Below are positions 1,224 through 25,335 of a stretch of DNA of 34,177 nt, one piece after another; the first letter of the stretch is position 1; each line of letters starts with the position of its first letter. The notes below the pieces were generated by a model that saw only the letters and a program-made list of their open reading frames with translations, was not told the origin of the DNA and searched no databases. A program made the position numbers and the translations under genes. Where the stretch lies: assembly GCA_030433295.1 (NCBI GenBank), contig JAUIMJ010000009.1:1-34177 (forward strand), given 5' to 3'. The stretch comes from a bacterium. Its GTDB lineage: Bacteria; Bdellovibrionota_C; UBA2361; SZUA-149.

Positions 1224-2405
1224 ATGACCCGGGTTTGTACATCATCCATGCAGGCACTTGAACAACATATGCAGGAGGTCATAGCCCACCTGAAGAACGG
1301 CGAGGTAGTGATTCTCGAAGATGATGCCGTTCAGGGTTCTCACTATTTCATGGTCGCCGCCGCCTCACTGGTATCGGTCGAGAACATTGCGCGCATGGTC
1401 AGCCTGGGAAAGGGAATACTTTGTGCGGCGATGACCGATGCCCGCCTGAAGGAGCTGGGGCTTGCGCCCATGCTTGGCAAGCCGGGTTCTAACCCCATGG
1501 ACTTCAGCGTCAGCGTGGAGGCGCGACAGGGAGTAACCACCGGTATCAGTGCCGCCGATCGCGTAGTCACGCTGAAGGCACTGGCCTTGAGCAATCACCC
1601 GAAGCGAGACCTGGTAACCCCGGGACATATGTTTCCCATTCGCACAAAAGACGGGGGCGTTCTCGTGCGCAATGCACCGGCTGAAGGCGCAGTGGATCTC
1701 ATGCGCCTTGCGGGCCTTGAACCCGTTGCCGCACTCATACAATGCCTCGACCAGGATGGTGCAATTCTCAACAAAAAGAGCATAGGCACTATCAGCGAGC
1801 TTGCGGACTTTCCTTCCGTTCGCCTTTCGGAGATAGCGTCTACGCGCTCAAAAACGGCGCCTATAGTTGAGCAGATAGCCTCGGTTCAAATGCCTACCGG
1901 TGATTTTGGCAACTTCACTGCCCATTGTTTCAGAAGTAAAACCGACAAAGCAGAGCATCTGGCGCTGGTAAAGGGAGACATCGCAAAGCACATCGCCGAG
2001 GGGAACGCCATTCCGGTTCGCGTGCAGGCAGAAAACGCCATTTTTGATTTACTGGGAGTTCCTGTTGAGCAGTTAAAGAATTTGCCAGCCGATGGCCCCA
2101 TGCCTTTTACCAATGACATTCGACGCTCCCTGCGCACTATTGAGGAAGCGGGCTGCGGTATCTTTGTCTACATTCGGCATCCGCGACAGGGAGCCCTCGC
2201 AGCCCATGTACGGGCCCTGGGAACAAACTCTAAGGAAGGCGGCGAAGCTTCTGCTTCGGCAGAAATTCGAGAATACGGTATCGGGGCTCAGATCCTGCAG
2301 ATTCTCGGTGCTACTTCCGTTTGCCTCTTAACTAATTCTCAGAAATCCCTTGCTGGTATTAATGCTTTTGGAATCAGGATAGTAGAACAGAAGAAGTTCT
2401 CCTGA
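1224..2405 (+). CDS. RibBA-like protein with both active sites degenerate
   Basis: This is a full-length two-domain homologue of bifunctional riboflavin enzymes. Residues about 10-205 match DHBP synthase (RibB: GVTTGISAADRV at 103-114, TPGHMFP at 132-138, DLMRLAGLEP at 158-167). Residues about 215-390 match GTP cyclohydrolase II (RibA: EIREYGIGAQIL at 347-358, LLTNSQKSLAGINAFGI after it). The RibB signature DDEDRENEGD is replaced by EDDAVQGSHYF (32-42), so the acidic metal and substrate residues are missing, although H135 and E154 remain. In the RibA half, the first zinc cysteine is replaced by Asn (VRVQAEN, 265-271) and the CDC pair is absent. It is therefore probably not a working riboflavin enzyme; RibBX-type proteins are a known precedent for a degenerate RibA half. 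No clear ribosome site is seen, and a start at Met9 or Met16 is possible. It lies 65 bases before the HD gene on the same strand. Confidence 0.85.
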   Translation: MTRVCTSSMQALEQHMQEVIAHLKNGEVVILEDDAVQGSHYFMVAAASLVSVENIARMVSLGKGILCAAMTDARLKELGLAPMLGKPGSNPMDFSVSVEARQGVTTGISAADRVVTLKALALSNHPKRDLVTPGHMFPIRTKDGGVLVRNAPAEGAVDLMRLAGLEPVAALIQCLDQDGAILNKKSIGTISELADFPSVRLSEIASTRSKTAPIVEQIASVQMPTGDFGNFTAHCFRSKTDKAEHLALVKGDIAKHIAEGNAIPVRVQAENAIFDLLGVPVEQLKNLPADGPMPFTNDIRRSLRTIEEAGCGIFVYIRHPRQGALAAHVRALGTNSKEGGEASASAEIREYGIGAQILQILGATSVCLLTNSQKSLAGINAFGIRIVEQKKFS

Positions 2406-2470: not shown

Positions 2471-3793
2471 ATGTCTAACTCCCTGCTGCGCCCCTCGAGC
2501 AATGTTCGCTTTGCCGATGTCGCTCATCAAACGCTCTTATTCGACAGTGCAATAGATTGCGAGCGGGCGATTCTTGAACTCCTTGATACCCCCTGGGTGC
2601 AGCGGTTAAGAAGAGTAAGTCAGACTGGTAACACTCGCCTCGTCTATATGTTTGCCGAGCACTCACGCTTCGGGCACTCCCTCGGAGTGGCCTTCCTTGC
2701 CACATCACTCATGCGCAATCTAAAGCGCCACAGTCCGGAAAAAGTTGCGACCCATGAAACGGCAGTTGCGGCGGCGGCCCTGCTCCACGACGTAGGACAC
2801 GTAGCGCCGGGTTCCCATCTGGGAGAGCGCATCTGGTCCAAGAAGAAGGCAAACAAGCACGAGTACATCAGCACGCGGGTTACTCTGGAGGATGATGATA
2901 TTCGCCGCATACTCGACAACTTTGACCCGGGACTTGCGATGCAGGTGGTCAATATTCTGGGTGAGAGCCCGGAGGTTCCCCCGTGGACCAAATCAATTAT
3001 CTCCGGTGGTGGCTGGAATGCAGATCGGGGAAACTGGGCGATAGTCGACAGCGCCATGTGTGCCGTCTCCTACGGTCGCTATAACGTCGCAGCGCTTATC
3101 GATTCCTTTCGCATTTCAGACGACGACGAGCTGGTGCTGCTCGAGAACAGAACCGACGCCCTGGTCCACTTCTTTGTGGCGCGTGACTCCATGTATCGGC
3201 AGGTGTATCAGCACCGGGTGCTGCAATCCACCGATGCCCACACCGCCTGTATCATCAAACGCCTGCGAGCTTTGATCGAAGAGGAAGGTCTTGAGTCAGC
3301 CAAAGAGCGCTATAACATCTTCTGCGATCAGACCATGTCTGCCGTGGTGTCCGCAGGAAACTACAGCGCGGATCTTTCGCTGGATCAATTGTTCACCATG
3401 ACCGAGAGCTGGTGGCAGTATCACATCGATTCCTGGTGCTGTGCAGAGGACCCGATCCTCAAAGACCTTTCGCTTCGTCTTCGAGACCGCCGGCTGCTAA
3501 AGACCATACGTCTTGATGATGAAGCGGACCCCGAGCAGTTTCTCGCCACCGCCCGGGATATCGCCTCGAACATGGGCTACGACCCCGAATACTACGTCAT
3601 TCTCATCCGTGAAAAAGGAAAACACCGTGCAAAGTCCGAGGACGTTCCCCTGGTCTTACTCGATAATGGAACCGTGGTCCCGGCCACGGAAATTGAGCCG
3701 ATGATTCACGACATCATGAAGCGGGCAGCGAGCAGGAGCAGCTGGCTTGCGGTGCCTGCCGAGGTGAAGCAGAAGATCGGACGGCTTCGTTAG
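2471..3793 (+). CDS. HD-domain phosphohydrolase (dGTPase/SAMHD1-like, COG1078 type)
   Basis: The 440-residue protein has the HD-superfamily metal site in order: H69 (SRFGHSLG), H106-D107 (ALLHDVGH) and D185 in NADRGNW. Before it, DTPWVQRLRRVSQ (39-51) is the family's N-terminal substrate-side motif. Relatives are deoxynucleotide triphosphohydrolases or related nucleotide hydrolases in the cytosol. The usual DxDRxDY motif reads NADRGNW here: the metal Asp is kept, but the flanking Asp and Tyr are changed, so the substrate may differ. The following VSYGRYN still fits the family. The start ATG has GGAAGAG just upstream. It is probably co-transcribed with the RibBA-like gene. The exact substrate cannot be read from sequence. 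Confidence 0.85.
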   Translation: MSNSLLRPSSNVRFADVAHQTLLFDSAIDCERAILELLDTPWVQRLRRVSQTGNTRLVYMFAEHSRFGHSLGVAFLATSLMRNLKRHSPEKVATHETAVAAAALLHDVGHVAPGSHLGERIWSKKKANKHEYISTRVTLEDDDIRRILDNFDPGLAMQVVNILGESPEVPPWTKSIISGGGWNADRGNWAIVDSAMCAVSYGRYNVAALIDSFRISDDDELVLLENRTDALVHFFVARDSMYRQVYQHRVLQSTDAHTACIIKRLRALIEEEGLESAKERYNIFCDQTMSAVVSAGNYSADLSLDQLFTMTESWWQYHIDSWCCAEDPILKDLSLRLRDRRLLKTIRLDDEADPEQFLATARDIASNMGYDPEYYVILIREKGKHRAKSEDVPLVLLDNGTVVPATEIEPMIHDIMKRAASRSSWLAVPAEVKQKIGRLR

Positions 3794-4552: not shown

Positions 4553-5620
4553 CTACTCAGCGGCTGCACTCGCGGACGGCAGGCGCACCTCTGCGAGTAA
4601 GCCGTGATGATCAGAGCCTTTTATCGGGAACACTGAGATGCGTTCTACCGCATAATCTTCAGCAAGGAGGATGTAATCTATGGGAACGCCCAATATCGCC
4701 TGATACAGAGAGGGTACATGGGCCGGCCAGGTCGCGCGCAGACCGAATCCGTTTCTCGCATCCCGCAAACCCGACTCGGCTATTGAATTCGCGTATGCGC
4801 TCGACCAGGGAGAGGTATTGAGATCGCCCATGAGAATCATTCTGTTTCTTTTTTTCTCTGCCGTTTCATCTTCATCCCCCCTCACGAGCTTCGCGATGCG
4901 TTTTAACTGACGATTGCGCCAGCGATAGCCGCGCACGCTTTGCGGTGAGTAGGGATGCGTGAGCACAATAGGCAGGGTGCCGCGCGGAGTTCGAAGCACT
5001 GCTGATATGCTTTTTAGTGTTTTCGATGCAACTTTCGAGGGGTGCTCAATTACCTCGAGAGACTCAATCGGGAACTTGCTGTAGAGGGCAATGCCGAAAA
5101 ACCCGCGGTCCGGAAATGAGCGTACGTGGGGAAAATGCTCCCGCAGCACGTGCAGCTCCCTCTCCCAATTGGGATCGATTTCAAGCAAACCAAGTATTGA
5201 GGTCTCCGTCGGAACCGAGTCAATAAACTCGCGATAGTGTTGATTTTGCGCATGTACGTTTGCAAGCAAAAGCGTGATGCGGTCTCCCGCAGACGCAGAA
5301 TACTCGCATGTGCTACACGGACTACTATCAGAAAAATACAGGGGGGCAATCATCGACCCGCTACTAAGGACTCCACAGAGCAGAAGCAGAGTCACCCTTC
5401 GGCTCGCCCTGAAACTAAAAAGCAGCAAGCCAGAGAGAAGAAGGAAAAAATACTGAGCCTGAAAGTGAGACAGAAGATCCACATAGAGAGAATCCACTGG
5501 TAGACGGGAGAGTACCGCGATAATCGCGAGGATTACATATCCCAGACGGACAGCCCCGATGAAATCACGGCCAAGGCTTCGGAGGGAGTATCCTTTCTCG
5601 CTCGCCTTCTCACTCTCCAC
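4553..5620 (-). CDS. Membrane-anchored endonuclease/exonuclease/phosphatase (EEP) protein, copy 2
   Basis: Three hydrophobic helices (about 25-40, 55-70, 77-95) precede an EEP domain (about 113-348) with a complete metal-hydrolase set: N121 (ANVHAQN), E147 (LLEID), H222 (LTHPYSP), D266/N268 (GDLNTSPWS), D315 (PIDYIL) and D337/H338 (GSDHHGL). A CxxC (C102, C105) sits between the last helix and the domain. It is a paralogue of the gene just upstream, with the same layout and motifs, so the pair arose by tandem duplication. The family includes DNases, phosphoinositide and sphingolipid phosphodiesterases; in membrane-anchored members the domain is usually extracytoplasmic. The start is GTG with GGGGGA upstream, three bases after the previous stop. 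Confidence 0.85.
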   Translation of the reverse strand: MESEKASEKGYSLRSLGRDFIGAVRLGYVILAIIAVLSRLPVDSLYVDLLSHFQAQYFFLLLSGLLLFSFRASRRVTLLLLCGVLSSGSMIAPLYFSDSSPCSTCEYSASAGDRITLLLANVHAQNQHYREFIDSVPTETSILGLLEIDPNWERELHVLREHFPHVRSFPDRGFFGIALYSKFPIESLEVIEHPSKVASKTLKSISAVLRTPRGTLPIVLTHPYSPQSVRGYRWRNRQLKRIAKLVRGDEDETAEKKRNRMILMGDLNTSPWSSAYANSIAESGLRDARNGFGLRATWPAHVPSLYQAILGVPIDYILLAEDYAVERISVFPIKGSDHHGLLAEVRLPSASAAAE

Positions 5621-5623
5621 GCG

Positions 5624-6649
5624 CTAGTCCCCCGAACTCTCATTGATTGACTTGCGCCGCATAAGCTCAATGCGCAGCCCACGATGATCTGAACCTTTCA
5701 CGCTAATGGTGGCAACGTCGCGCACCGAGAAATGCTCGTCGATGAGACAATAGTCCAGGGGAATGAGCAGCGGGAATATCTGATTTGGCCAGCTCGGCAA
5801 AAGGCCGAAGCCCTGTCGGGCGTCCTTAAGCCCGGAGTCAGAGAGAAAGCGTTTCATGCTGTAGGACCAGGGCGTGGTGTTCAGATCACCGAGCAAGAGC
5901 ACCGGGCCTTCGAGGCCTGCAATCAAAGCAGAGAGAATCTGCAGCTGCTTGTTTCTTTGCGCAAAGAGTTCTGCGGTCTGCGGTGGCACCGGATGTGTAA
6001 GAATAAGGGTGCTCGTTCCGCCGGGTAACTCCAGAGAGGCGACCAGGGTGGGAGGAAGTCCCGCCTTTCGCACTTCAGGCGTATTAATGAGTCGGGCATC
6101 CTGTATGGGATACCTGCTAAACAGAATAAGGCCGAAGTTATCCGGACGCGGATGGGCAAAGTGATAGGGAAATCTCTGCTTTAACTTCTCAAGACCCTCG
6201 ACCCACATAGTGTCGATTTCTATGAGGCCAAGCACTTCGGTGTCCTCGGCGACGGCATCCATCAGGGCCTCATAGTTGCTATTTCTGGTTCGCACATTGG
6301 CGAAGGCAAGCTTTAGACTGGCTGATTGCTCGAGGACGCAGTCCTGGCAGTTCTCTGGCGGCAGATACATCTGCGCGAGCATGAGCAAAGTGGAAGTAAG
6401 GCCAAGCAGAAGATAGATTCGCAGGTATCGGCTCACTGCACGCCAGCCGATAAGAAGACCCAGCAGCAGGGCGAGAAAATACTGAAGCTGAAAATGAGAA
6501 ATCAGGTCGAGAAGATAGGCATCAGAGGGCAGACGAGAAAGTAGTGCGAAGCTCGCAGCGATCAAAAGAGACAGTCGGATACACGCGAAGAGATCGCTGC
6601 GCAGTCTGCTCAGGGAATGCCGCTCGCGTAATGTATCAATACCGCCCAC
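5624..6649 (-). CDS. Membrane-anchored endonuclease/exonuclease/phosphatase (EEP) protein, copy 1
   Basis: First gene of the three-gene minus-strand set. It has three hydrophobic N-terminal helices (about 22-40, 55-70, 77-95), then a CxxC (C101, C104) and an EEP domain (about 112-330). All catalytic positions are present: N118 (ANVRTRN), E144 (LIEID), H219 (LTHPVPP), D255/N257 (GDLNTTPWS), D299 (PLDYCL) and D321/H322 (GSDHRGL). It is clearly paralogous to the next gene throughout its length, including the membrane part (SRLPxDxxxxDLxSHFQxQYF in both). The start is GTG with AGAGGA about 4 bases upstream. The substrate is unknown; phosphodiester or phosphomonoester hydrolysis at the periplasmic face is the likely activity. 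Confidence 0.85.
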   Translation of the reverse strand: MGGIDTLRERHSLSRLRSDLFACIRLSLLIAASFALLSRLPSDAYLLDLISHFQLQYFLALLLGLLIGWRAVSRYLRIYLLLGLTSTLLMLAQMYLPPENCQDCVLEQSASLKLAFANVRTRNSNYEALMDAVAEDTEVLGLIEIDTMWVEGLEKLKQRFPYHFAHPRPDNFGLILFSRYPIQDARLINTPEVRKAGLPPTLVASLELPGGTSTLILTHPVPPQTAELFAQRNKQLQILSALIAGLEGPVLLLGDLNTTPWSYSMKRFLSDSGLKDARQGFGLLPSWPNQIFPLLIPLDYCLIDEHFSVRDVATISVKGSDHRGLRIELMRRKSINESSGD

Positions 6650-14356: not shown

Positions 14357-14845
14357 CTACTTTTCGCCTCCTTCGTCTTTCTTCTCCTCCACATTCTTTG
14401 TCGCCTCACTGGCTTCCTCGGCGGACCAGAGGGGCATGCGAATGGGGTATTTGGGATCGTCGAGCACCATCTGCCGCCCGATCATATTGCTTGAATTCAC
14501 CACTATCGGCGCTTTCAGATTTACCGTCGTCATCGAGGCATCCGGACGAACGGACACGAGGTTAACGATAGCGACATCGTCTGCTTCTTTAAGGTCCAGG
14601 TCACGATCGCCCACCGGCAATGCAAACTGATATCCCTCGCCAAACTCAGCCGCGTTCACCACGACAAAGGCCAGATCCTCATTCTCCGTGCTCTGCAACC
14701 AGGAAAACGGGGGGTTGTACTCGAGAAGCACATACTTGGTACTTGTCGGAAATCCGATAATACCATTGATGATAGTGATCTCCGAGTCTTTTGCGACCTC
14801 GATCTCACCAAAGCGCGTCGTACTGACCTTAATTGTATCCGTCAT
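14357..14845 (-). CDS. fliW: Flagellar assembly factor FliW
   Basis: The 162-residue protein fits FliW: TRFGEIEV near the N-terminus, ITIINGIIGFPTSTKYVLLEY, SWLQSTENEDLAFVVVNA, then VNLKAPIVVNSSNMIGRQMVL. FliW binds CsrA and, competitively, flagellin: when flagellin is secreted, free FliW sequesters CsrA and flagellin mRNA is translated. A Lys/Glu-rich tail (about 143-162) is extra. AAGGAAGAG lies 6 bases before the ATG. It follows csrA by 134 bases, the order csrA-fliW being a variant of the fliW-csrA pair common in spirochaetes and Firmicutes. Confidence 0.93.
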   Translation of the reverse strand: MTDTIKVSTTRFGEIEVAKDSEITIINGIIGFPTSTKYVLLEYNPPFSWLQSTENEDLAFVVVNAAEFGEGYQFALPVGDRDLDLKEADDVAIVNLVSVRPDASMTTVNLKAPIVVNSSNMIGRQMVLDDPKYPIRMPLWSAEEASEATKNVEEKKDEGGEK

Positions 14846-14979
14846 CTAACTCTTCCTTAAGCACCGCCCTTGAAACGGCTTACAACACGGGCAAAAATGT
14901 ACCCACAACGCAGCCCGAGATCATCCTCCCTGGGGTATCCCGGGTGCATCCATCTCTCAACACTCAAGCAGACTTCTGC

Positions 14980-15258
14980 CTACTCATCCTCCTTTTCGGA
15001 CTTACCGGTAAAGGGAGCAATGGTAGGTTTTTTATCAGCCCAGGCTTTTGCGACATCTCCAAGGTCTGATGGAGTATCAGCCGCAGCAACCTTGTTCTCT
15101 TCTAAAATCTGCAGATAAATTTCTTCGCGATAAATTTTCACCGATGAAGGGGCATCTATTCCGATACGAACCTGATTACCTCGAATACCGTGGAGGGTGA
15201 TTTTCACATCATCTCCAATGTACACACTCTGGCCCGGCTTACGTGTAAGTACTAGCAT
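14980..15258 (-). CDS. csrA: Carbon storage regulator CsrA (RNA-binding)
   Basis: The 92-residue protein begins [18 protein letters not shown] and continues [19 protein letters not shown], the full CsrA core with the RNA-contact strand at the N-terminus. CsrA dimers bind GGA-containing hairpins and usually block translation; with FliW here, flagellin is the likely target. Residues about 56-92 are a charged extension beyond the usual 60-75 residues, a form associated with FliW-regulated CsrA. The ribosome site AAGGAGAAGG contains GGA, so CsrA could cover it. A hairpin leader precedes the gene. Confidence 0.95.
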
Positions 15259-15290
15259 TTCTTACCTTCTCCTTTTCCCTGGAGTGACAC

Positions 15291-15335
15291 TCGCGCAGAA
15301 GCGCGAAGAAACAACACCCGGCTATCCTGCCGGGT
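15291..15335 (-). promoter_or_regulatory. csrA leader hairpins with an AGGA loop
   Basis: On the minus strand, ACCCGGC-AGGATA-GCCGGGT (15335-15316) is a 7-bp perfect stem with AGGA in the loop, the classic CsrA-binding arrangement. It is followed by TCGCGC-TTCT-GCGCGA (15306-15291). The second GGA is in the csrA ribosome site. Two sites bridged by a CsrA dimer would give autoregulation. A weak terminator is the alternative reading. Confidence 0.5.
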
Positions 15336-15395
15336 CAACGCGCGGACGATGACACATATAATTCATGCGGCACAAAAACCCTGTCCGTCAGCAAA

Positions 15396-15422
15396 AACAT
15401 AGCAGATATACCTACATGTCAA
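15396..15422 (-). promoter_or_regulatory. Candidate csrA promoter
   Basis: A perfect TTGACA (15422-15417) is followed by TGCTATGTT, an extended -10 with TATGTT at 15401-15396. The spacer is 15 bases, shorter than usual. It would give csrA-fliW a transcript independent of flgL. Confidence 0.35.
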
Positions 15423-15550
15423 TAGAGAGAATTTATTAGGCAAAGGAGATAAGGGGAAACACAGCCGGCAGAGAGGGCCCAATCAGGCCTCAACAGGGCT
15501 GTGCCGCACTAATTTCCTAGCAAAAGATGTAGGAACTTACGCGAAATGCT

Positions 15551-16657
15551 CTAGATGAAATCGAGGAGAGAGAGATTGCTGATCCTCGCCCCGGTGGCAA
15601 GAAGCGCTTCCAGGTTCGTCTGCAGATTTGCGAAGGCACTCGCCGCTTCGACGACATCGGCGTCCTGAATCTCACTTCGCGCCTGCTCGGTGTTGATACC
15701 GATGTTCTCGAGGATTGACTCCGTCTGCTCGACACGGGCCAGTCGGGCACCGATACTACTCAGCTCAGTTTCAATGTCATTGGTTCGCGCGAGATCGAGC
15801 GCGGTCATGGCCTCATGAATCTGCCCCAGCTGTATCGCGAGTTCGCTGTTGTAGTTCGCGGCCGAGGGATCGCTGAGAGCGAGCTGGCGGTTGGTATTTC
15901 CAACATCTGCTACGGATTCAAGGTCATCGATGACGCCATCGGTATCTCTGTCGACCTTACTGGTCTGATAGCCGTGCAGGGCTCGCCCGAGCTGCGTGGC
16001 GGCAGAGATGGCATCTTCAAAGATGTTTCCCGAGGTGTTGATTCGAACACTCTCGGTATCACTTATCTTGACATCCCGGGTAGTCGTGTGCCCCAGCTCA
16101 GCATCTGCGGTGATAACGTTGTTCGGGGAGAATAACCAGTGTCCCCGCTCGGGGGATGCCGCCGGAGAGCCATCACCCGTACCGCCGGCATTCTCAAAGT
16201 AGTTACCTTCGTAGACAAATGGCGGGTCATCATCGTCAGTCCCACCGTAGATATACACACCCTGTTCTTTGGTATTTGCCAGGGAGGCAAGCTGATCACG
16301 CAGTTGAAAAACCTCATCTGCGATTTGCGCACGCACGTCCGGAGCCATGGTTCCGTTTACGCCCTGTGTGGCGAGTTCACGAAGGCGAATCATCACCTCA
16401 TTTGCCGTCGTCATCGCGGTCTCCTGAACCGCGAGGAAGTTTGTGGCATAGGCAATGCGCTCTTTGTGTCGTTCAATGCGCTGAATGGTATTCTGCAGAC
16501 CAACAACCGTTCCGGCACGAGCGGGATCATCACTGGGATCAGCGATATCCAGTCCCGACGTCAAACGATTACGCGTATCCTCCAGGTTGATCTTGGTCTT
16601 GTTCACCTGGTTGATGAAGGTATTCGTAAACTGGCTGTTAGTAACTCGAAATGCCAT
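15551..16657 (-). CDS. flgL: Flagellar hook-filament junction protein FlgL
   Basis: The 368-residue protein has the flagellin-like N-terminal helix (MAFRVTNSQFTNTFINQVNKT, then RLTSGLDIADPSDDPARAGTV) and the matching C-terminal helix (ELSSIGARLARVEQ, then EAASAFANLQTNLEALLATGARI). It sits between FlgK and the filament. The variable middle domain contains DRDTDGVIDDLE (236-247), which matches a DxDxDGxxDxxE calcium-loop pattern, not usual for FlgL. It lies 14 bases after flgK on the same transcript. GAGTTGAGAA gives a weak ribosome site. Confidence 0.93.
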   Translation of the reverse strand: MAFRVTNSQFTNTFINQVNKTKINLEDTRNRLTSGLDIADPSDDPARAGTVVGLQNTIQRIERHKERIAYATNFLAVQETAMTTANEVMIRLRELATQGVNGTMAPDVRAQIADEVFQLRDQLASLANTKEQGVYIYGGTDDDDPPFVYEGNYFENAGGTGDGSPAASPERGHWLFSPNNVITADAELGHTTTRDVKISDTESVRINTSGNIFEDAISAATQLGRALHGYQTSKVDRDTDGVIDDLESVADVGNTNRQLALSDPSAANYNSELAIQLGQIHEAMTALDLARTNDIETELSSIGARLARVEQTESILENIGINTEQARSEIQDADVVEAASAFANLQTNLEALLATGARISNLSLLDFI

Positions 16658-16671
16658 TTCTCAACTCGCTA

Positions 16672-18405
16672 TTAGGCTACGCTATTGAGTAATTCAGTCA
16701 GCAGCTCATCCGCGGTTCGAATAAGCCGGGACGAGGCCTGAAATCCTCTTTGAAAGTTAATGAGCTTCGCAAACTCCTCATCGAGACTGACCCCGGAGAT
16801 ACTTGCCTGGATCTCCTGGAGCTGTTCCTCTCGGTCGCGATAGAGTTCAGCATCATCTGAGGCGCGACGACTGAAACCACCTGCGGTAGTCACCGTGTTT
16901 GAGTACAGTTCTTCCAGACTCATATCGGTGAGAGAGACTACACCGAGGTTGTAGCCCACACCGGGAGCGGTAGACAGCGGTGATAAAATCGCGTCAACGT
17001 TCTCGGAACCACCGGGTGATCCGACGATGGAACCGGCAACGGGGTCCAGGTCCCGCGCTGCGGCGAAGTGGCGCTCGTTACTGATGTTGAAGGTCAGCGT
17101 TTGCGCAAAGCTCGTCACGCCCGCTGCAATCACCAGGTCGAGATCGGTGTTGACGGGAACTCCGTTGGTTCCCTTTACATCACCGGTCCCCGGAAGGATA
17201 TATGCCTCAGCATTATCAAAGGCGAAGAGTGCAAAGCCATTTAGTCCGCCGGTATTCACAACACCTATGGAACTGTCATTTGCTGCGTTGCCGTCAAGAT
17301 CAAGGGACTGGGAATCAAAGACCAGCGGGGTTGCCGGATTCTCATCATCCTGCCCAATGTACTGGCGGTTTACGCGAGTGAGTAAGTCACGAGCAAAAAG
17401 CTCAACGCGCCCTGCAAGCTGTACCAGGTCACCGTCGGTATCAAATGCAGTCGTCGGCGCCGGAGGGATAGGCTGAGGCTGAACCCCGCGGAGAGAGAGC
17501 AGCCCGGCAATTTCCCCCTCGCCTGAATTACGAATAATATCCGTCAACTGAATATGCTGCGGTGCGCCTGAGTCGGCGTAGTTTGCAACCACATGCCCGA
17601 GGCGAATGCCGTCGAGGCCGCTGGGAAAACCATTCGGAGCCGCGTCTTCAAACGAAGGCGTCTGCGTAAACTCCAGGTCATTTGAGTTTGTGCCCTGAAC
17701 CAGATTGAAACCGTTTGCGAAGTAGAGATTGACGGTATTGTCGGAGTTGTCTACTCGCTCAAAACCGACTAATTCACCCAGCTCCAGCATAAGCTGATCG
17801 CGCTGATCGCGCAGGGTAAGCGCCTCCTGATCGCTGATTTCACTTTCGCGAATCTGAGAATTTACATCGGCGATAGCACTGCTAAGACGGTTAACGTCTT
17901 CAACGATGATACCGATTCGACTATCTGCCTCCCGCTGCAGGGCTGCAATTTCGCTGTAGGTCTGTCGTATGGAAAGAACCAGTTCCTGTCCCTGCTGAAC
18001 CACCTGTGTTCTCAGGGGAATACTTCCGGGACTGGTAGTGAGATTCTGCAGCGCACTGACAAACTCATTGAACTCATAGCCGATACGTCCGGCGACTCCG
18101 TCGAGGGAGAAGGACGTCTCAGCGCGGCCGAGAAATTCCTCGCGAATCTCTGCAAAGGCCCGGTCACCGGCGCGATCTTCGAGCTGGCCATTGATGAAAT
18201 TATCAACAACCCGGGTGATTCGCTGAACGTCAACACCCGTCCCAACTCCGGAAACCGGAAGAGGCTGCGTGGTGACGATGTCCGGACGCCGACGGGTGTA
18301 ACCAGGCGTGTTTACGTTGGCGACGTTGTCGCCAATCGTGCGAATTGCCTGAGTGTTGGCGTTGAGCGCCGACTTGGATGTTTCTAATAGATCACTGATA
18401 CCCAT
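16672..18405 (-). CDS. flgK: Flagellar hook-associated protein 1, FlgK
   Basis: The 577-residue protein has the FlgK N-terminus (MGISDLLETSKSALNANTQA, NVANVNTPGYTRRRPDIV) and the C-terminal helix (EEFAKLINFQRGFQASSRLIRTADELL). It joins the hook to FlgL. Two Asp-rich loops in the middle, FDTDGD (321-326) and DLDGNAAND (369-377), could bind calcium. GGGAAGC lies just upstream of the ATG. The gap of 361 bases to flgN carries a candidate promoter and hairpins, so flgKL may be partly independent. Confidence 0.94.
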   Translation of the reverse strand: MGISDLLETSKSALNANTQAIRTIGDNVANVNTPGYTRRRPDIVTTQPLPVSGVGTGVDVQRITRVVDNFINGQLEDRAGDRAFAEIREEFLGRAETSFSLDGVAGRIGYEFNEFVSALQNLTTSPGSIPLRTQVVQQGQELVLSIRQTYSEIAALQREADSRIGIIVEDVNRLSSAIADVNSQIRESEISDQEALTLRDQRDQLMLELGELVGFERVDNSDNTVNLYFANGFNLVQGTNSNDLEFTQTPSFEDAAPNGFPSGLDGIRLGHVVANYADSGAPQHIQLTDIIRNSGEGEIAGLLSLRGVQPQPIPPAPTTAFDTDGDLVQLAGRVELFARDLLTRVNRQYIGQDDENPATPLVFDSQSLDLDGNAANDSSIGVVNTGGLNGFALFAFDNAEAYILPGTGDVKGTNGVPVNTDLDLVIAAGVTSFAQTLTFNISNERHFAAARDLDPVAGSIVGSPGGSENVDAILSPLSTAPGVGYNLGVVSLTDMSLEELYSNTVTTAGGFSRRASDDAELYRDREEQLQEIQASISGVSLDEEFAKLINFQRGFQASSRLIRTADELLTELLNSVA

Positions 18406-18766
18406 GCTGCTTCCCGCTAAAGTTCACCTCTGTAAACGCAAGAAGTGTGCACAGTGCAGCGTATGGGGTTTTAGATATTAATTACGGCAGCTTAGAGCTT
18501 TCCTGGGTGTTTGCCACAGAAGAATTATCTTCTGGGCAGAACGATTTTGCCGCGCAAAGGGGCAATATCTACTCATCGGGAATTATAGCGCTTTAGTGAT
18601 GGACTGCCATAGATGTGCCGCAGAGATGCACTCTGCGACGCCTGCCTCCAGGTCGTCTGAACAGCCCGCCGGGGCCGGCTCCATAGTGATGTGAGGCCAC
18701 GGCGAAAATACGTACGGGGCGATTGCGAGGTCACTGCGGGGCTCATTTCGAGGTCAGAACACCGAC
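18406..18766 (-). other. flgN-flgK spacer with hairpins
   Basis: Unusually long for this operon, with no gene. It has two perfect 7-bp hairpins: CGCAGAG-N5-CTCTGCG (18619-18637) and CAGAAGA-N4-TCTTCTG (18517-18534). The second lies in the predicted flgK leader. Neither has a T-tract. Confidence 0.5.
18582..18610 (-). promoter_or_regulatory. Candidate sigma-70 promoter for flgK
   Basis: ATGGCA (18610-18605), a 17-base spacer, then a perfect TATAAT (18587-18582), about 175 bases before the flgK start. The -35 matches 4 of 6. The same stretch has TAAA and CCGATGA at wrong spacing for sigma-28. Confidence 0.35.
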
Positions 18767-19294
18767 CTATGCTGAGCTTGTGTATCTACCGCTGCGACTG
18801 GCAAAAGCAGAATCGGACTCCTCGCTGGCGAGCCTGCCTTTGCGACCGTAGGTCGGCAGGTCAGATGCCGGTGATGAGCGCATTATGGAAATCGTTGAAG
18901 CGATGATTCCCAGAGACTGCTTGATCAAATCACCATTCTGCTCGTTCAGTTTTTTTACCGACTCGGCAGACATCTTGAGTTCCTCGCCTGTCTTTTGAAG
19001 CTCTTCACTAATCGCTTTCTCATCGCAGGTAGCAATAACCTCAAGAAACGGCTTCTTCTGTGTGCCCCCCTTGCTGTCACCGGAGATATCCATGGCTTCA
19101 AGCACACTCGCGCGCTCACGCTCAAGCGCTACCGCTTCGCCAATCAGCTTTTCTTTCTGACCACCGATATCGAGTATGCGCTCCTGATCGAGCTTTACGA
19201 TCGCCGCGCGCTCGACAGACAGCAGGCGAAGTATCTTGTCCTGATAGGATAATTCCTTCTGCAGAATTCGAAGAAGCTTTCTATAATCCGACAT
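18767..19294 (-). CDS. flgN: Flagellar export chaperone FlgN family protein
   Basis: The 175-residue protein is a long helical bundle with LRILQKELSYQDKILRLLSVERAAIV at the start, as in FlgN, and a second helical segment (LNEQNGDLIKQSLGIIASTISIM). FlgN binds FlgK and FlgL in the cytoplasm and delivers them to the export gate. The assignment rests on helical content plus position between flgM and flgK, the standard order. The Ser/Arg-rich tail (about 143-175) is probably disordered. A strong GGAGGAG lies 6 bases before the ATG. Confidence 0.8.
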   Translation of the reverse strand: MSDYRKLLRILQKELSYQDKILRLLSVERAAIVKLDQERILDIGGQKEKLIGEAVALERERASVLEAMDISGDSKGGTQKKPFLEVIATCDEKAISEELQKTGEELKMSAESVKKLNEQNGDLIKQSLGIIASTISIMRSSPASDLPTYGRKGRLASEESDSAFASRSGRYTSSA

Positions 19295-19379
19295 GAGTTC
19301 TCCTCCAAATGCCCACCTGCGGAGCTTTCACTCCGGCAAAAAACCTTCGGCAAAACCGAGACGAGCAATTTGTTAATGC

Positions 19380-19700
19380 TTATGCGATTGATTCAGTATC
19401 CGCGGCAAAAGAAACCATTGAGCGAGCTACATCAGTTGACTCAACTGAAAACTCACCGGCTTGTACTTTTGCTTTTAACTCAGACACCTTCGCTGATCGG
19501 GCACTCTCATCGTCGGCCAGGATGTTAGACAACTGCGAGAGCTGTCTTGAGAGAGCAGAAATGCTGACACTGTCCTGACCTGGACGGCGCGCTGCATTAC
19601 CCTCATTCTGGGCTTGGTATGTCGATGCGACCCGATTGCGTTGGACGGACTGAGAGGAAGTTTGAGCGTTGCCACGCTCGAATAGCTTTTTAATTTCCAT
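19380..19700 (-). CDS. flgM: Anti-sigma-28 factor FlgM
   Basis: The 106-residue protein has a disordered, Gln/Ser-rich N-terminus and the FlgM core DSVSISALSRQLSQLSNILA (44-63), followed by RSAKVSELKAKVQAGEF, the typical C-terminal helices that bind FliA. FlgM holds sigma-28 until the hook is finished, then is exported. A sigma-28-like promoter lies upstream, as for flgM elsewhere. AAGGA is 10 bases before the ATG. flgN follows after 85 bases. Confidence 0.88.
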   Translation of the reverse strand: MEIKKLFERGNAQTSSQSVQRNRVASTYQAQNEGNAARRPGQDSVSISALSRQLSQLSNILADDESARSAKVSELKAKVQAGEFSVESTDVARSMVSFAADTESIA

Positions 19701-19795
19701 TTAGTTTTCGTCCTTCCGTTGATGGGCCCGCTTACTTCCGATATCCGGTGGAAGATTAGACTATCCTTGGCCAATTACAGAACCTTGTGTTTGGT

Positions 19796-19823
19796 GTCTC
19801 GGCCGGTTTTCAGTCTAACTTGA
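19796..19823 (-). promoter_or_regulatory. Candidate sigma-28 (FliA) promoter of flgM
   Basis: On the minus strand TCAAGTTA (19823-19816) is followed after 12 bases by GCCGAGAC (19803-19796). The enterobacterial consensus is TAAAGTTT-N11-GCCGATAA. It lies about 95 bases upstream of flgM and would drive flgM-flgN-flgK-flgL. Confidence 0.5.
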
Positions 19824-19925
19824 ACAAAATATCGAAAAGTGACGCGATTTCCTTACGTTAACCGCCCCCGTCGGGCTCCCATTTCCGCAACAATTAGTCA
19901 TTTTTGCTGAAACTTCCCTGCACCC

Positions 19926-20270
19926 TTAGGATGCACCGTCGGTCTGTTTCAGTAGCTGTTTTTTCACAAACTCTTTCACACCAATTCCTCGCCCCTCAGA
20001 CACCGAGTCTGCTACGGCCTGGTTCAGCATATCCTGGTAAATCTTGGCCTGGTTGCTGTCCTCGCCGAACATCCCTGTGGTTTCTACTGTTTCCCACATA
20101 GACTTAAGCATTTGATGCAATAATAATGCCTCAAACCCGCTGGCCGCTTTTTCCACCTCCGCATCGGAGGTAAGTGCCTTAGATTGTATGGACTTTGCCT
20201 TGTCGAGGGCAGCACTCTGCTGGGCCGAATCCAGGGGAGAGGCACCGGCGAGTGTCGAGATCTTATCCAC
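19926..20270 (-). CDS. flgJ: Rod-binding protein, FlgJ N-terminal domain only
   Basis: The 114-residue protein contains the Rod-binding domain: VEKAASGFEALLLHQMLKSMWET, MFGEDSNQAKIYQDMLNQAVADSVS, then GIGVKEFVKKQLL. There is no C-terminal muramidase, as in many non-enteric bacteria, so peptidoglycan opening for the rod needs another enzyme. It caps the growing rod in the periplasm. The start is GTG with AAGGGTGA upstream. It lies 75 bases after flgI, with a small hairpin (20294-20311) between. Confidence 0.9.
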   Translation of the reverse strand: MDKISTLAGASPLDSAQQSAALDKAKSIQSKALTSDAEVEKAASGFEALLLHQMLKSMWETVETTGMFGEDSNQAKIYQDMLNQAVADSVSEGRGIGVKEFVKKQLLKQTDGAS

Positions 20271-20345
20271 GCTCTGTCACCCTTTTTGACACCCCCGGAA
20301 CAAACTCCGGGCGCATTTCATATTGTTTTACTGGGGCTTTCCGCA

Positions 20346-21455
20346 CTACATCACCTCCAGTTCGGCCTGAAGTGCACCGGCTTTCTTCATTGCCTGGAAA
20401 ATTGATATCAAATCTCGCGGGGTAGCTCCCAGACCATTCAGGGCATTCACTACTTCGCCGAGGCTGACTGACTTCTCAACGATAGCGAGTTTGGCTTCAC
20501 CTTCCGTAACCTCAACATCGCCGTTATCAACCACCGCGGTTTCTCCTCCGGCCAATGCATTGGGCTGCGCCACCTGTGTTTCATTGCGAATACTGATGTT
20601 CAGGTTCCCGTGCGCAAGAGCGACGGTTGATACGCGGACATTTTCTCCGATGATGATGGTTCCCGTGCGTTCATTGACCACGACCTTTGCGCCGGTGTCA
20701 GGCTCTACTTCCAGTTCCTCGATTTTTGCGAGCAGATGAATCGGCTGCCGGGCAAGCTCCGGATCAAGTGGCAGGACCACGCTGGCACTATCAATCGCCT
20801 GAGCACGCGGAGCACCGATGATGCTGTTAATTGCCGCCTGCACCCGAGTCACCGTGGTGAAATCCGGTTTTCTCAGAACAACGCGGATCTGACCCTGTGC
20901 AAACAAATCAAAGGGAATAGCGCGCTCAATTGATGCTCCGCGGGGAATGGTTCCCACCGTCGCATGATTCTTCTGCGCAGTATCACCGCCGCCTTCTACG
21001 ATAAAGCCACCGAGAGAGACCGGACCCTGCGCAACGGCATACACCTGACCGTCAGCACCTTTTAGTGGTGTCATCAGCAAGACGCCGCCCTGCAGGGTTT
21101 TTGCGTCTCCGATGGAAGAGATAGTCACATCGATCTTTGATCCCGGCCGCGAAAAGGGAGGCAGGGTCGCCGTAACAATCACCGCGGCCACGTTTGATAA
21201 TTTCAGGTCCTCGCTGTTTACCCGTATACCGAGACGCTCAAGAAAGTTGGACATCGCCTGCGGAGTAAAAGCCGCACCTCGCTTATCGCCCGTGCCTTCG
21301 AGTCCGACGACAAGGCCATACCCGATGAGTTCGTTACCCCGAACGCCCTCGATGTCGGCAATATCCTTGAGACGAGCGGCAGACACCGGCTCAGCGAGCA
21401 ACAACAAGACGCTCATCAAGAAAAACAGCAGTTTATGCTTCATACCTTTTCTCAC
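20346..21455 (-). CDS. flgI: Flagellar P-ring protein FlgI
   Basis: I choose the GTG at 21455, which has GGGGGA 6 bases upstream and leaves a 23-base gap to flgH; the ATG at 21443 is an alternative, and the frame remains open to 21518 inside flgH. The 369-residue product has a signal peptide (KHKLLFFLMSVLLLLAEPVSA) and the FlgI pattern: RLKDIADIEGVRGNELIGYGLVVGL, GTGDK, then VAAVIVTATLPPFSRPGSKIDV. It assembles the P ring in peptidoglycan around the rod, with FlgA as chaperone. Length is normal for the family. Confidence 0.95.
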   Translation of the reverse strand: MRKGMKHKLLFFLMSVLLLLAEPVSAARLKDIADIEGVRGNELIGYGLVVGLEGTGDKRGAAFTPQAMSNFLERLGIRVNSEDLKLSNVAAVIVTATLPPFSRPGSKIDVTISSIGDAKTLQGGVLLMTPLKGADGQVYAVAQGPVSLGGFIVEGGGDTAQKNHATVGTIPRGASIERAIPFDLFAQGQIRVVLRKPDFTTVTRVQAAINSIIGAPRAQAIDSASVVLPLDPELARQPIHLLAKIEELEVEPDTGAKVVVNERTGTIIIGENVRVSTVALAHGNLNISIRNETQVAQPNALAGGETAVVDNGDVEVTEGEAKLAIVEKSVSLGEVVNALNGLGATPRDLISIFQAMKKAGALQAELEVM

Positions 21456-21478
21456 AGCATTTCCCCCAATACAGCAGT

Positions 21479-22702
21479 TTAAAACGGCCAAACAAACTTG
21501 AACAATCGCGCGCCCCAACCCGGGGTCTGCTCATCACCGACGACTCCTCGACCGTATAAATCGATCCGCATGTTTGCGATGCGGTTTGAGTCGACCTGGT
21601 TGTTCGATGAAATATCACGAGGTCTGATAAGTCCGCTGATCACCATCACTTCCTCTTCGGCATTGATGGAGACGATCTTTGTGCCCTCTACACGGAGCAG
21701 ACCATTCGGAAAGACCTCCATAATCACTGCTGAGATCTGTCCGCTCAGGCGGCCTTCCCGTTCGGTTTCCCCGGTTCCGGTAAACTCCACCTGAGTGGAT
21801 GCATTAATTAACTGAGAAGGATCCAGACTGGTGTTGTTTGCCGCCCATTTGCTGGTCTCAATTCCAAAGAACTCAGTAATACCGGCGAGAAGATCAAACT
21901 CATTGGTGGTCTCGGTCTCAGCCTTCTTACTACCCTTTGTGCTTTCGTTAATGGTTATCGTTAAGACATCCATAGCCTGAAAGGCACGATGGTCAGTAAA
22001 CAGAAAGGCTCCCTGTGCCTCATCCGGCCAGAGTGAAGGATTGTGACGCATCTGCCCGGTATGATACGGAGCGCGACTGCCCGGGGGCATTGCTGCTACT
22101 GGGGGATGGGGAAACTGCCCGGATACACCCGAAGTAGTACCCGGGACAGCTCCCCCATTTTGAAAATCTACCGGCGTCGGCGCTACGGCCGAGCCCTTCA
22201 GTGAAAATCCCTGATCGAGATAGCGTCGATCTCCGGTAAACTGAGCTCGCATCAGCTTGTTCGGTGAACGCACCTCCCTGATGGGAAGGGGCGCTGAAGT
22301 CGGCTGATTACCATAGGCCGACATACTCGCACGGGTGCGCTGGTCCTGAGGATTTCTCCCAAGCGCCATTGCCGGCGTGCTGCCGGCCATCGCCTGCTGT
22401 CGAGCCTCATAGGCTGATACCGGCTGCCTGCGGGCTTGCGCGGCATCTGCATACGCTGCCGGCATATCTCCGTAGGGACGGGGAGCCTGCGCCGCCGCGA
22501 CAGGTGCCGCCGAACGCGCACGATGGAAAGAGTAATCCTGAGCCGTGCCGTTGTGCACCGCACGTGCGAAAGACTCTGCAGGAACTATCGACGGCGCTTC
22601 CTGCTCATTCGCTCTCATGTTCGCGCACGCAGTAGCAAGCAATACCGATAGTACGGGGCATAGCTTTCTCATAATGTGCTTTTTCATTCTGCCCGTTTTC
22701 AT
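21479..22702 (-). CDS. flgH: Flagellar L-ring lipoprotein FlgH with long insert
   Basis: The C-terminal part (about 221-407) is typical FlgH: NPSLWPDE, MDVLTITINESTKGSKKAET, VVFPNG-type strand EVFPNGLLRVEGTK, and SGLIRPRDISSNNQV. The N-terminus is a lipoprotein signal ending LLATAC with C26 modified; Ala at -3 is a loose lipobox. Between them lie about 190 residues rich in Ala, Pro, Gln and Arg with no homology I recognise, so the protein is 407 residues against about 230 for enteric FlgH. It forms the outer-membrane L ring. It overlaps flgA by an ATGA junction. Internal Met6 or Met11 starts are possible. Confidence 0.93.
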   Translation of the reverse strand: MKTGRMKKHIMRKLCPVLSVLLATACANMRANEQEAPSIVPAESFARAVHNGTAQDYSFHRARSAAPVAAAQAPRPYGDMPAAYADAAQARRQPVSAYEARQQAMAGSTPAMALGRNPQDQRTRASMSAYGNQPTSAPLPIREVRSPNKLMRAQFTGDRRYLDQGFSLKGSAVAPTPVDFQNGGAVPGTTSGVSGQFPHPPVAAMPPGSRAPYHTGQMRHNPSLWPDEAQGAFLFTDHRAFQAMDVLTITINESTKGSKKAETETTNEFDLLAGITEFFGIETSKWAANNTSLDPSQLINASTQVEFTGTGETEREGRLSGQISAVIMEVFPNGLLRVEGTKIVSINAEEEVMVISGLIRPRDISSNNQVDSNRIANMRIDLYGRGVVGDEQTPGWGARLFKFVWPF

Positions 22703-23706
22703 TCTACACTGACCTCTACGTTGTTCTCATCGATGACAATTCCACGAATTATCTTGCTTGAGCTGTCATTCTTCACCCGAATACGCTGCCCGCGCAGGCC
22801 ATCCTGCATCGCGACTCCGCTTGCGGTAGCGAGTAGCCCACCGCTGGAGTAGCGCATAGTCACGCGCTTTCCCTGGACAATCGTCGGGGGGATATCAATA
22901 AAACTCTCTCGAATTGGTCCGCCGGCAGATATTCTGCTCTTTAGTCGCTTACCGACAAGACTATCTACCTCGGCAACGATATCAGCAGGCTGCTTAAAGA
23001 GATTCAGGCGAACGAGTTCCACATCAGACGGAGAAATCAGCATGCCGCGCTCCAGCGTTTTATTGAGCACGGGCACTTCGCGCCAATCATCAACGACAGC
23101 GGTTGCCAGAAATCTTGCGGCTGACTCACCGTCGATAAGGGCGTTTATCTTCAGGGGAACCTTGCCGCCATTGAGTTGTCCAACGCGGGCTACTTCAAAC
23201 GTCGTGGTCCCTTCCGGAACTACCTGCCCGTGGGTCCAGCGCACATCGCGAACCTTCACATCAAGACTGGCATCCTTGCGCAGGGAGGCTGCAACGGCAT
23301 CAAGGACCTCCTTCTTGGTAAGCACACGTCCGGCGCGAGTTACATTAACCAGGCGTGGAATGGCGTAACCAAGCGTATCCGAGGGGATACCCGCTGCTTC
23401 TATGGCAGCAAGAATCTTTACCCCTGAAACAACGGTGCTCATACGGGGTGCCGGTGCTTCGCCGAGATTTATCTCCTTGAGGGCAGCAACAACGGCATCA
23501 TGTTCTTTGTGTTTGGCCCGAATCGTCGCAATCTCGCCGAGGTAAATTCGATCGGAATCAATGCTCACCTCGGATGCAATGCGCAGACGAGGACGATCGC
23601 CGCTGTCTGCGATGGCAAGCGCCGGCAAAAGCAGAAGTAGAGCTGCGAAGAGCAGTCTTCGAATAGGACGTAGTGTAGCGTGCATACCCTTACCTGGTAA
23701 TTTCAT
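22699..23706 (-). CDS. flgA: Flagellar P-ring assembly chaperone FlgA
   Basis: The 335-residue protein has a signal peptide (about 16-33) and the C-terminal SAF/FlgA region: VPVLNKTLERGMLISPSDVELVRLNL, then VGKRLKSRISAGGPIRESFID, and VTMRYSSGGLLATASGVAMQDGLRGQRIRVKN. The start ATG overlaps the flgG stop by one base and the stop overlaps flgH, so the three are translationally coupled. It acts in the periplasm to help FlgI form the P ring. The protein is longer than enteric FlgA (about 220) because of an N-terminal domain of about 100 residues. Confidence 0.93.
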   Translation of the reverse strand: MKLPGKGMHATLRPIRRLLFAALLLLLPALAIADSGDRPRLRIASEVSIDSDRIYLGEIATIRAKHKEHDAVVAALKEINLGEAPAPRMSTVVSGVKILAAIEAAGIPSDTLGYAIPRLVNVTRAGRVLTKKEVLDAVAASLRKDASLDVKVRDVRWTHGQVVPEGTTTFEVARVGQLNGGKVPLKINALIDGESAARFLATAVVDDWREVPVLNKTLERGMLISPSDVELVRLNLFKQPADIVAEVDSLVGKRLKSRISAGGPIRESFIDIPPTIVQGKRVTMRYSSGGLLATASGVAMQDGLRGQRIRVKNDSSSKIIRGIVIDENNVEVSVE

Positions 23707-24494
23707 TATCGCTTAACATTAATCGCACTGGACAGAAGCGCATCAGCAGTCTGAATCACTTTCGAGTTTGCCTCGTATGCCCGCTGTCCGGTCACCATCT
23801 GAACAATCTCTTCAACGACGCTGACGTTAGAACTCTCCAGAAAACCCTGTGCAATGGTTCCCGTTCCCGTTTCACCTGGTGTTGAAAGTGTGGCAGCACC
23901 TGAGGCCTCGGTTTCTTCAAAAAGATTTCGCCCCATCGCGCGTAAACCACCGGGGTTCTGAAATCGAGCTACCTGAATCTGGCCCACCTGGGTAGCCGCC
24001 GCAGCGCCAGGCTGACGAACGGACACAATACCGTCAGAGGAAATAGTAATTCCGAGTGTATCGGCGGGAATGGTGATAGCCGGTGTGAGCTGGAAGCCAT
24101 CGGAGTTTACGAGAATTCCGTTTTCATCAAGCTTAAAGGCACCATCCCGACTGTAGGCAAGATCTCCGTTTGGCAGCGTAATCTGAAAGAAGCCGTCTCC
24201 CTCAATCGCCGTATCGAGCGGATTCGAAGTCGACTGAAAATCACCCTGCGAATAGATCTTACTGACCGCAGCAGGACGGGCACCAAGACCGATCTGAATA
24301 CCGGTAGGGCTGCTGCCCTGCTGGTTTGCAGCGCTTCCCGGCTCCTCGACGATCTGATACATCAGGTCCTGAAAATCAGCGCGACTTTTCTTAAAGCCGG
24401 AGGTGTTTACGTTGGCCAGGTTGTTTGCAATGACATCGAGATTCAATTGCTGAGCAATCATCCCGGTGGCCGCAGTAAAGAGTGAACGTATCAT
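23706..24494 (-). CDS. flgG: Flagellar distal rod protein FlgG
   Basis: The 262-residue protein is a canonical Flg[45 protein letters not shown], a [22 protein letters not shown] middle and the C-terminal [25 protein letters not shown]. It builds the distal rod through the L and P rings. A strong AAGGAGG lies 5 bases before the ATG. The FlgG-specific rod stretch with YQ..EPGSA is present. Confidence 0.96.
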
Positions 24495-24579
24495 ATAACC
24501 TCCTTAGGTTTTCCTATAACATCAGGATGTTTCATCAAGGGGACTCCTGAACTCCCGTCAGTCAGACAGAATGGCCTGT

Positions 24580-25335
24580 CTAACCGCTGGAACGACTACT
24601 TCTAATCGCTCGATCATTTAACTCATTCATGGTCTGCATGGTCTTCGTATAACTTTCGAATGAACGCTGTGCCGCGATCATCTTCACCATGGAATCCACC
24701 ACATTCACATTGGGCATTTCTACTGACTGGGGAACTACATCAGCTTGCTCCGGTCTGGCATCATCCGGTCGTTCAAGCTTAAAGCGCGTTCCTTCAACTC
24801 GTGTTAGCTGCGAGGTATCGTCAATCCTGACCGTTCGAAGAGTACCTACGGTTTCTCCGTCTATCAGCACCGAGCCATTACTGCTTATGCGAGGAATTCC
24901 ACCGGCAACCGTAATCGGACCGCCCTCACCCAATACGGGCTTACCATCCGGGGTCACCAGCGTTCCCGTGCTATCCAGCGTAAAGTTTCCGGCCCGGGTA
25001 AACTCGGGGCCTTCATTTCCCTGAATCGTAAAAAACTGATTCGGGTCTCTAAGGGCCACGTTAAGCGGATTTCCGGTAAACTCCACCGGACCCGGGGTGA
25101 AGTCGGTCATGGTTTCAATATCAACCACACCCGGTGTTCTCAGGTGATCATCTTTAGCGCGGGGATCCGTGCTCACGGCACTTGCCAGCGTGTCAGAGAA
25201 TTCCTGTTTTCGGCTGACAAGACGCTCCGCCTTGTATCCGACGGTGTTCACATTCGCCAGGTTGTTTGCCACAACCTGTAAACGCCTTGATTCGAGTAGC
25301 CCGCCTGAAGCTGCTACGTATGCTCCTCTATCCAC
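24580..25335 (-). CDS. flgF: Flagellar proximal rod protein FlgF
   Basis: The 251-residue protein is of the rod/hook family: [19 protein letters not shown], a GPEFTRAGNFTLDSTG middle, and NVNVVDSMVKMIAAQRSFESYTKTMQ at the end. It is paralogous to the following flgG, and the flgF-flgG order is standard. The start is GTG with GAGGAG 8 bases upstream. The spacer to flgG carries a small inverted repeat, AACATC-CT-GATGTT. Confidence 0.9.
   Translation of the reverse strand: MDRGAYVAASGGLLESRRLQVVANNLANVNTVGYKAERLVSRKQEFSDTLASAVSTDPRAKDDHLRTPGVVDIETMTDFTPGPVEFTGNPLNVALRDPNQFFTIQGNEGPEFTRAGNFTLDSTGTLVTPDGKPVLGEGGPITVAGGIPRISSNGSVLIDGETVGTLRTVRIDDTSQLTRVEGTRFKLERPDDARPEQADVVPQSVEMPNVNVVDSMVKMIAAQRSFESYTKTMQTMNELNDRAIRSSRSSG

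Follow-up and report, generated by a model that had tools for sequence, protein, structure and literature searches.

The active site of RibB, the DHBP synthase, is shared between the two subunits of a dimer: in the V. cholerae enzyme the site of monomer A is built from its own loops 1 (residues 34-41), 2 (82-98) and 3 (175-185) and also takes loops 4 (103'-111') and 5 (132'-138') from monomer B, loop 4 being described as a lid over the partner subunit's site (PMC5228156). Glu39 mutants of RibB are inactive, and in the M. jannaschii enzyme Thr108Ser abolishes activity and Asp114Ser lowers it (PMC5228156). In what follows, loops 1-3 are called the home half of the site and loops 4 and 5 the partner half; V. 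cholerae residue numbers are the E. coli numbers plus one. Among relatives in which part of this machinery has been given up, the RibBX proteins of Shewanella, Aeromonas and Acinetobacter (structure 6mnz for the last) keep a full active RibB half and retain a degenerate RibA half as a folded domain (PMC10012899). Arabidopsis RIBA2 and RIBA3 are RibBA paralogues that have each lost one activity and kept the other (PMC3509567), and for this pair we found no description of reciprocal loss across the dimer interface. Farther afield, trypanosomatid deoxyhypusine synthase and AdoMetDC consist of mutually dependent paralogues, a dead and an impaired subunit forming a heteromer (PMC3663545, PMC5201418). 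A literature search that covered few subscription journals returned nothing relevant on a RibBA heterodimer or on degenerate RibBA paralogues.

The gene considered here, which we call 'a', lies on the forward strand at 1224..2405 of the window, the whole stretch of 34,177 nucleotides of contig JAUIMJ010000009.1 that was analysed. The preliminary description had taken it for a full-length, double-domain RibBA homologue, and the open reading frame (393 aa) and both Pfam domains agree: residues 17-205 (1272..1838, forward strand) match the DHBP_synthase family PF00926 at 2.8e-48 and residues 217-389 (1872..2390, forward strand), the degenerate RibA or GTP cyclohydrolase II domain, match GTP_cyclohydro2 (PF00925) at 1.2e-31, each well above its gathering score. 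Every NCBIfam RibB, RibA or RibBA model that the product matches, however, scores below cut-off, the best score being 243.5 bits vs an equivalog cut-off of 569. Its AlphaFold2 model is confident (pLDDT 89.8) and predicts an intact fold, with the M. tuberculosis RibBA known as RibA2 (4i14_B, TMt 0.91) as the top PDB match and the RibBX structure 6mnz as the next best.

Within this fold, alignment shows losses and retentions that follow the division of the RibB site (all positions on the forward strand). Loop 1, on the home side, is degenerate, DDAVQGSHYF replacing DDEDRENEGD at 1320..1349, so that AVQGSHY stands where DRENEGD is expected; the GHTE metal/phosphate motif has become APAE (NAPAE, 1671..1685), and with these changes the metal and substrate residues of loop 1 and GHTE are absent. 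Of loops 1-5 just 4 and 5 survive: loop 4 reads QGVTTGISAADR at 1527..1562 (core TTGISAADR), with the equivalents of V. cholerae Thr108' and Asp114', and loop 5 reads LVTPGHMFP at 1611..1637 (core PGH), with the equivalent of His137'. In the RibA half the zinc cysteines (HSECLTGD...RCDCG in canonical proteins) are lost at 2019..2096, as are QEGRGIGL and the catalytic residues, while YGIGAQIL (2274..2297), a motif that the genome's other RibBA has lost, and LLTN are retained. The absence of DRENEGD and the RibA zinc site, like the survival of YGIGAQIL and LLTN, had thus been read correctly from the start. The verdict that both active sites were lost went too far: the metal and catalytic motifs are gone, but the partner-contributed RibB residues T107, D113 and H136 (E. 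coli numbering) are kept, at 94-100% among the 36 members of the 'a' family.

This combination separates 'a' from each of its described relatives. Like bifunctional RibBA (4i14) it has two domains, the same fold and RibB loops 4 and 5; unlike that protein, it has lost loops 1-3, the GHTE motif and both the zinc and the catalytic residues of RibA. Its degenerate but folded RibA half recalls RibBX; it cannot be counted among those proteins, as its chain lacks complete RibB active-site residues and its RibB half keeps the partner loops only, and the earlier remark that RibBX loses the RibA half alone and is therefore something different holds (PMC10012899). Assignment to a RIBA3-like class, with RibB lost and RibA kept, was rejected because intact GTP cyclohydrolase II residues are absent.

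The genome that carries the window (4.45 Mb in 425 contigs, 86% complete) has one other RibBA, which we call 'b', on contig C29. There it directly adjoins the riboflavin synthase gene ribE (Lum_binding, C29:16712-17269) and a ribD-like gene (C29:17462-17875) whose RibD_C match is weak, at 22.0 bits vs a cut-off of 24.1; lumazine synthase (ribH) is encoded away from 'b', on C327. The two RibBA genes are on separate contigs, 'a' adjoining an HD-domain gene and no rib genes, and a search of 16 loci gave no Rfam match to an FMN riboswitch near either. The preliminary description had proposed looking for this form beside a normal RibBA, and a second RibBA is indeed present, but it is not normal. 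Its RibB domain retains loops 1 and 3, most of loop 2, Cys67 and GQTE/GHTE and is without the loop 4 residues Thr108 and Asp114 (V. cholerae numbering), His137 often being gone too; all zinc and catalytic residues of its RibA domain are in place.

The reciprocity of these losses is the main finding, and it extends well beyond one genome. We aligned 36 'a' sequences and 39 'b' sequences (from 38 genomes) with 91 canonical RibBAs from many phyla and with E. coli RibB and RibA, whose reference letters were verified against PDB entries. On the home side (E. coli numbering), R37, E38, N39, E40, G41, D42, T93, T154, E174, M182 and R184 are found at 92-100% in 'b', with R37, E38, E40, D42, T154 and E174 invariant, vs 0-19% in 'a'. 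On the partner side, G104, T107, I109, S110, D113 and H136 stand at 92-100% in 'a', vs 0-18% in 'b' for the first five (T107 8%, D113 3%) and 47% for H136; in V. cholerae numbering, Thr108 is lost in 35 and Asp114 in 37 of 38 'b' proteins, and canonical RibBs keep both at 99%. Counted by column, 11 conserved home-loop positions are lost in 'a' alone and one in 'b' alone, vs none in 'a' alone and six in 'b' alone for the partner loops (Fisher p 4e-4, columns within a loop not being independent). The lost columns are also variable, with 14 residue types at column 107 in 'b' and 12 at column 38 in 'a', which indicates that the constraint has shifted to the other gene. Each class genome in which both genes could be read (36 of 36) has the pattern: 'a' keeps the partner-loop residues that 'b' lacks, and 'b' the home-loop residues that 'a' lacks. 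An intact loop 1 is seen in 91 of the 92 comparison sequences. Several details count against the reading developed below. At M83 in loop 2, a home loop, canonical proteins and 'a' have Met and each of the 38 'b' sequences covering the column has Gln, a fixed change that runs opposite to the general pattern. H136 persists in about half of the 'b' sequences, loop 4 of two 'a' sequences has Ser for Thr, and 'a' and 'b' lie on different contigs in the window's genome. Most 'b' proteins also have Gln at position 153, as do roughly one in three canonical RibBAs.

The distribution of the two genes tells a similar story. Among the 46 genomes of the class that were surveyed (no other class of its phylum being represented among the relatives), 36 have both genes, two have 'b' only, none has 'a' only and eight have neither, a co-occurrence with a Fisher p of 2e-7 if kinship is ignored; the two genomes with 'b' only are incomplete bins (79% and 84% complete). 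Apart from genes split across contigs, PF00926 occurs in exactly two genes in each genome with the pair, and a PF00926 search found no further intact RibB there, so that 'a' and 'b' occur together with no additional RibB present. A point against the proposal made below is that lumazine synthase was missed or weakly found in seven genomes with 'b', mostly incomplete bins. The eight genomes with neither gene span seven families besides that of the window: five have no RibB (PF00926), RibA or lumazine synthase, in two (G011 and G042) the only RibBA is intact in both halves, and one (G029) has a separate intact RibB beside a RIBA3-like RibBA in which only the RibA half is intact. Where an intact RibB is present, then, 'a' and 'b' are both absent, as would be predicted for an interchangeable unit. 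No 'a'-type protein was recognised among 337 genomes outside the class, and a GTDB contig scan for 'a' returned just relatives at 32-37%. Six outside-class sequences, chosen mostly by best scores, were read; five were canonical, and the sixth, a second copy in a two-copy genome, had loop 1 partly altered.

Taken together with the published dimer, these observations lead us to propose, at a probability of roughly 85%, that 'a' and 'b' form an obligate heterodimeric RibBA in which one RibB site is composite and the other dead. The complete site would combine loops 1-3 from 'b' with loops 4 and 5 from 'a' and convert ribulose 5-phosphate to DHBP; the mirror site, with the home side of 'a' and the partner side of 'b', would be the dead one. 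Given the reciprocal loop losses and the published mutants, neither protein alone should form a working RibB homodimer. Which loops come from which subunit, and the importance of the lost residues, are taken from published work (PMC5228156); the reciprocal residues, the co-occurrence, the lack of another RibB, the retained folds and the purifying selection come from the present analysis, and from the two together we infer that 'a' associates with 'b' and that the composite site is active. The most likely role of 'a' would accordingly still be RibB catalysis, in trans, because 'b' has lost exactly the partner half that 'a' conserves.

The RibA half may be shared as well. G131 and G133 of YGIGAQIL are at 100% in 'a', and the motif is lost in 'b' (G131 at 0%), a reciprocity which suggests, from residue conservation, that 'a' may lend this segment to the RibA site of 'b'. 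It would be 'b' that provides GTP cyclohydrolase II activity, perhaps with the YGIGAQIL segment contributed by 'a'. E. coli RibA is without the motif, so 'b' may be active alone as RibA, and our literature search turned up no structural study of the interface in RibA dimers. That both activities are heteromeric, with YGIGAQIL of 'a' acting in trans on the GTP cyclohydrolase II site of 'b' beside the composite RibB site and neither paralogue having any complete site alone, is thus a tentative extension that we rate below even odds.

Both genes appear to be old. Each forms one well-supported clade in the tree, and the same deep split, the window's order vs the rest, recurs in both, which points to an old arrangement inherited together. 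On whether one duplication inside the class gave rise to both, the tree speaks mildly against 'a' and 'b' as sisters (AU p 0.02), long branches, that of 'a' among them, being involved. The mirror-tree correlation between the two (0.88) is uninformative, as the HD neighbour correlates about equally. The long branches and divergent sequence of 'a' could be taken to mean a decaying duplicate without function, an idea that conservation already contradicts and to which we give next to no credence: 'a' is kept in 36 genomes of many families, has 25 invariant columns among 36 sequences at a mean column identity of 37%, retains a folded model and shows a dN/dS of 0.09-0.23 in the three pairs that are unsaturated in dS, most pairs being saturated. 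Purifying selection on 'a', claimed in the preliminary description, is thereby borne out where it is measurable; its corollary, that this selection is for something else, finds no support, since the conserved part is the partner half of the RibB site, the half that 'b' has lost.

Two functional alternatives to the composite enzyme deserve more attention. The gene downstream of 'a' (2471..3793, forward strand) encodes a SAMHD1-like HD-domain phosphohydrolase of what we take to be the EF1143 type, and it adjoins 'a' in 36 of 36 genomes. Its place beside 'a' had been taken as a hint of nucleotide metabolism, and the constant adjacency would suit a role for the two outside riboflavin synthesis, as a ligand sensor or in a new reaction. 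Orthologues of the HD gene nevertheless persist without 'a' in G011, G042 and G029 and, in G005, without any riboflavin gene, so that adjacency is no pointer to a nucleotide reaction common to the two; the HD gene is a stable neighbour and not evidence of shared function. Such a role would moreover leave the reciprocal loss in 'b' unexplained, and 'a' is never found without 'b'; we consider it very improbable. A riboflavin-linked regulator is somewhat easier to entertain, though still unlikely: 'a' could be a prozyme-like pseudoenzyme that tunes or activates 'b' homodimers, for instance in response to ribulose 5-phosphate or GTP, with the homodimers carrying both RibB and RibA activity. Dead paralogues act as activators in the T. 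brucei AdoMetDC prozyme (PMC5201418) and trypanosomatid deoxyhypusine synthase (PMC3663545), and in RibBX the RibB activity is under the control of the X domain (PMC10012899). Homodimers of 'b', though, would in nearly every genome lack Thr108 and Asp114, the two residues at which M. jannaschii mutants show lost or lowered activity; nor would a protein with a purely regulatory role have reason to conserve just loops 4 and 5. The dead and impaired paralogue enzymes of trypanosomatids seem, by analogy, to be the closest functional parallels to the 'a':'b' heterodimer proposed here; they are unrelated enzymes from unrelated organisms, whereas 'a' and 'b' each carry one half of a single interface site.

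Several other genes were noted in passing. The HD gene was also considered as the missing riboflavin phosphatase and rejected for that role, as an orthologue occurs in a genome that lacks the pathway; in one genus, several genomes have an additional HD copy that is more distant. Another PF00925 protein, some 500-600 aa long and carrying at least two PF00925 stretches in several genomes, occurs in G000 (contig C250:88-579, L191), G021 (C100), G028 (C100/C8), G024 (C57) and G022 (C109); it is not the RibA of the riboflavin operon and is possibly a UTP-cyclohydrolase-like enzyme. In one genus (G018, G021, G025, G026, G030, G031, G032, G035, G041 and G043) there is an extra weak PF00925 match of about 60 bits, mostly in an open reading frame of 385-480 aa with no PF00926 match. 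On the reverse strand of the window, two similar proteins encoded side by side (4553-6649; 355 and 341 aa) look by eye like a tandemly duplicated membrane-anchored protein of the endonuclease/exonuclease/phosphatase type, and a flagellar cluster with FliW, FlgL, FlgK, FlgI, FlgH, FlgA, FlgG and others, likewise recognised by eye, occupies about 14357-25335.

If the heterodimer is as we propose, it would be a clear natural case in which reciprocal loss has divided an interface active site between two paralogues, a case conserved across a bacterial class and belonging to an essential vitamin pathway. An apparent pseudoenzyme would become a testable catalytic subunit, and a half-of-sites RibB would let home and partner residues be mutated separately. 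Annotation of either gene on its own, as RibBA or as dead, would be wrong here, and a general screen may be worthwhile for paralogue pairs whose losses lie across a known homodimer interface from one another.
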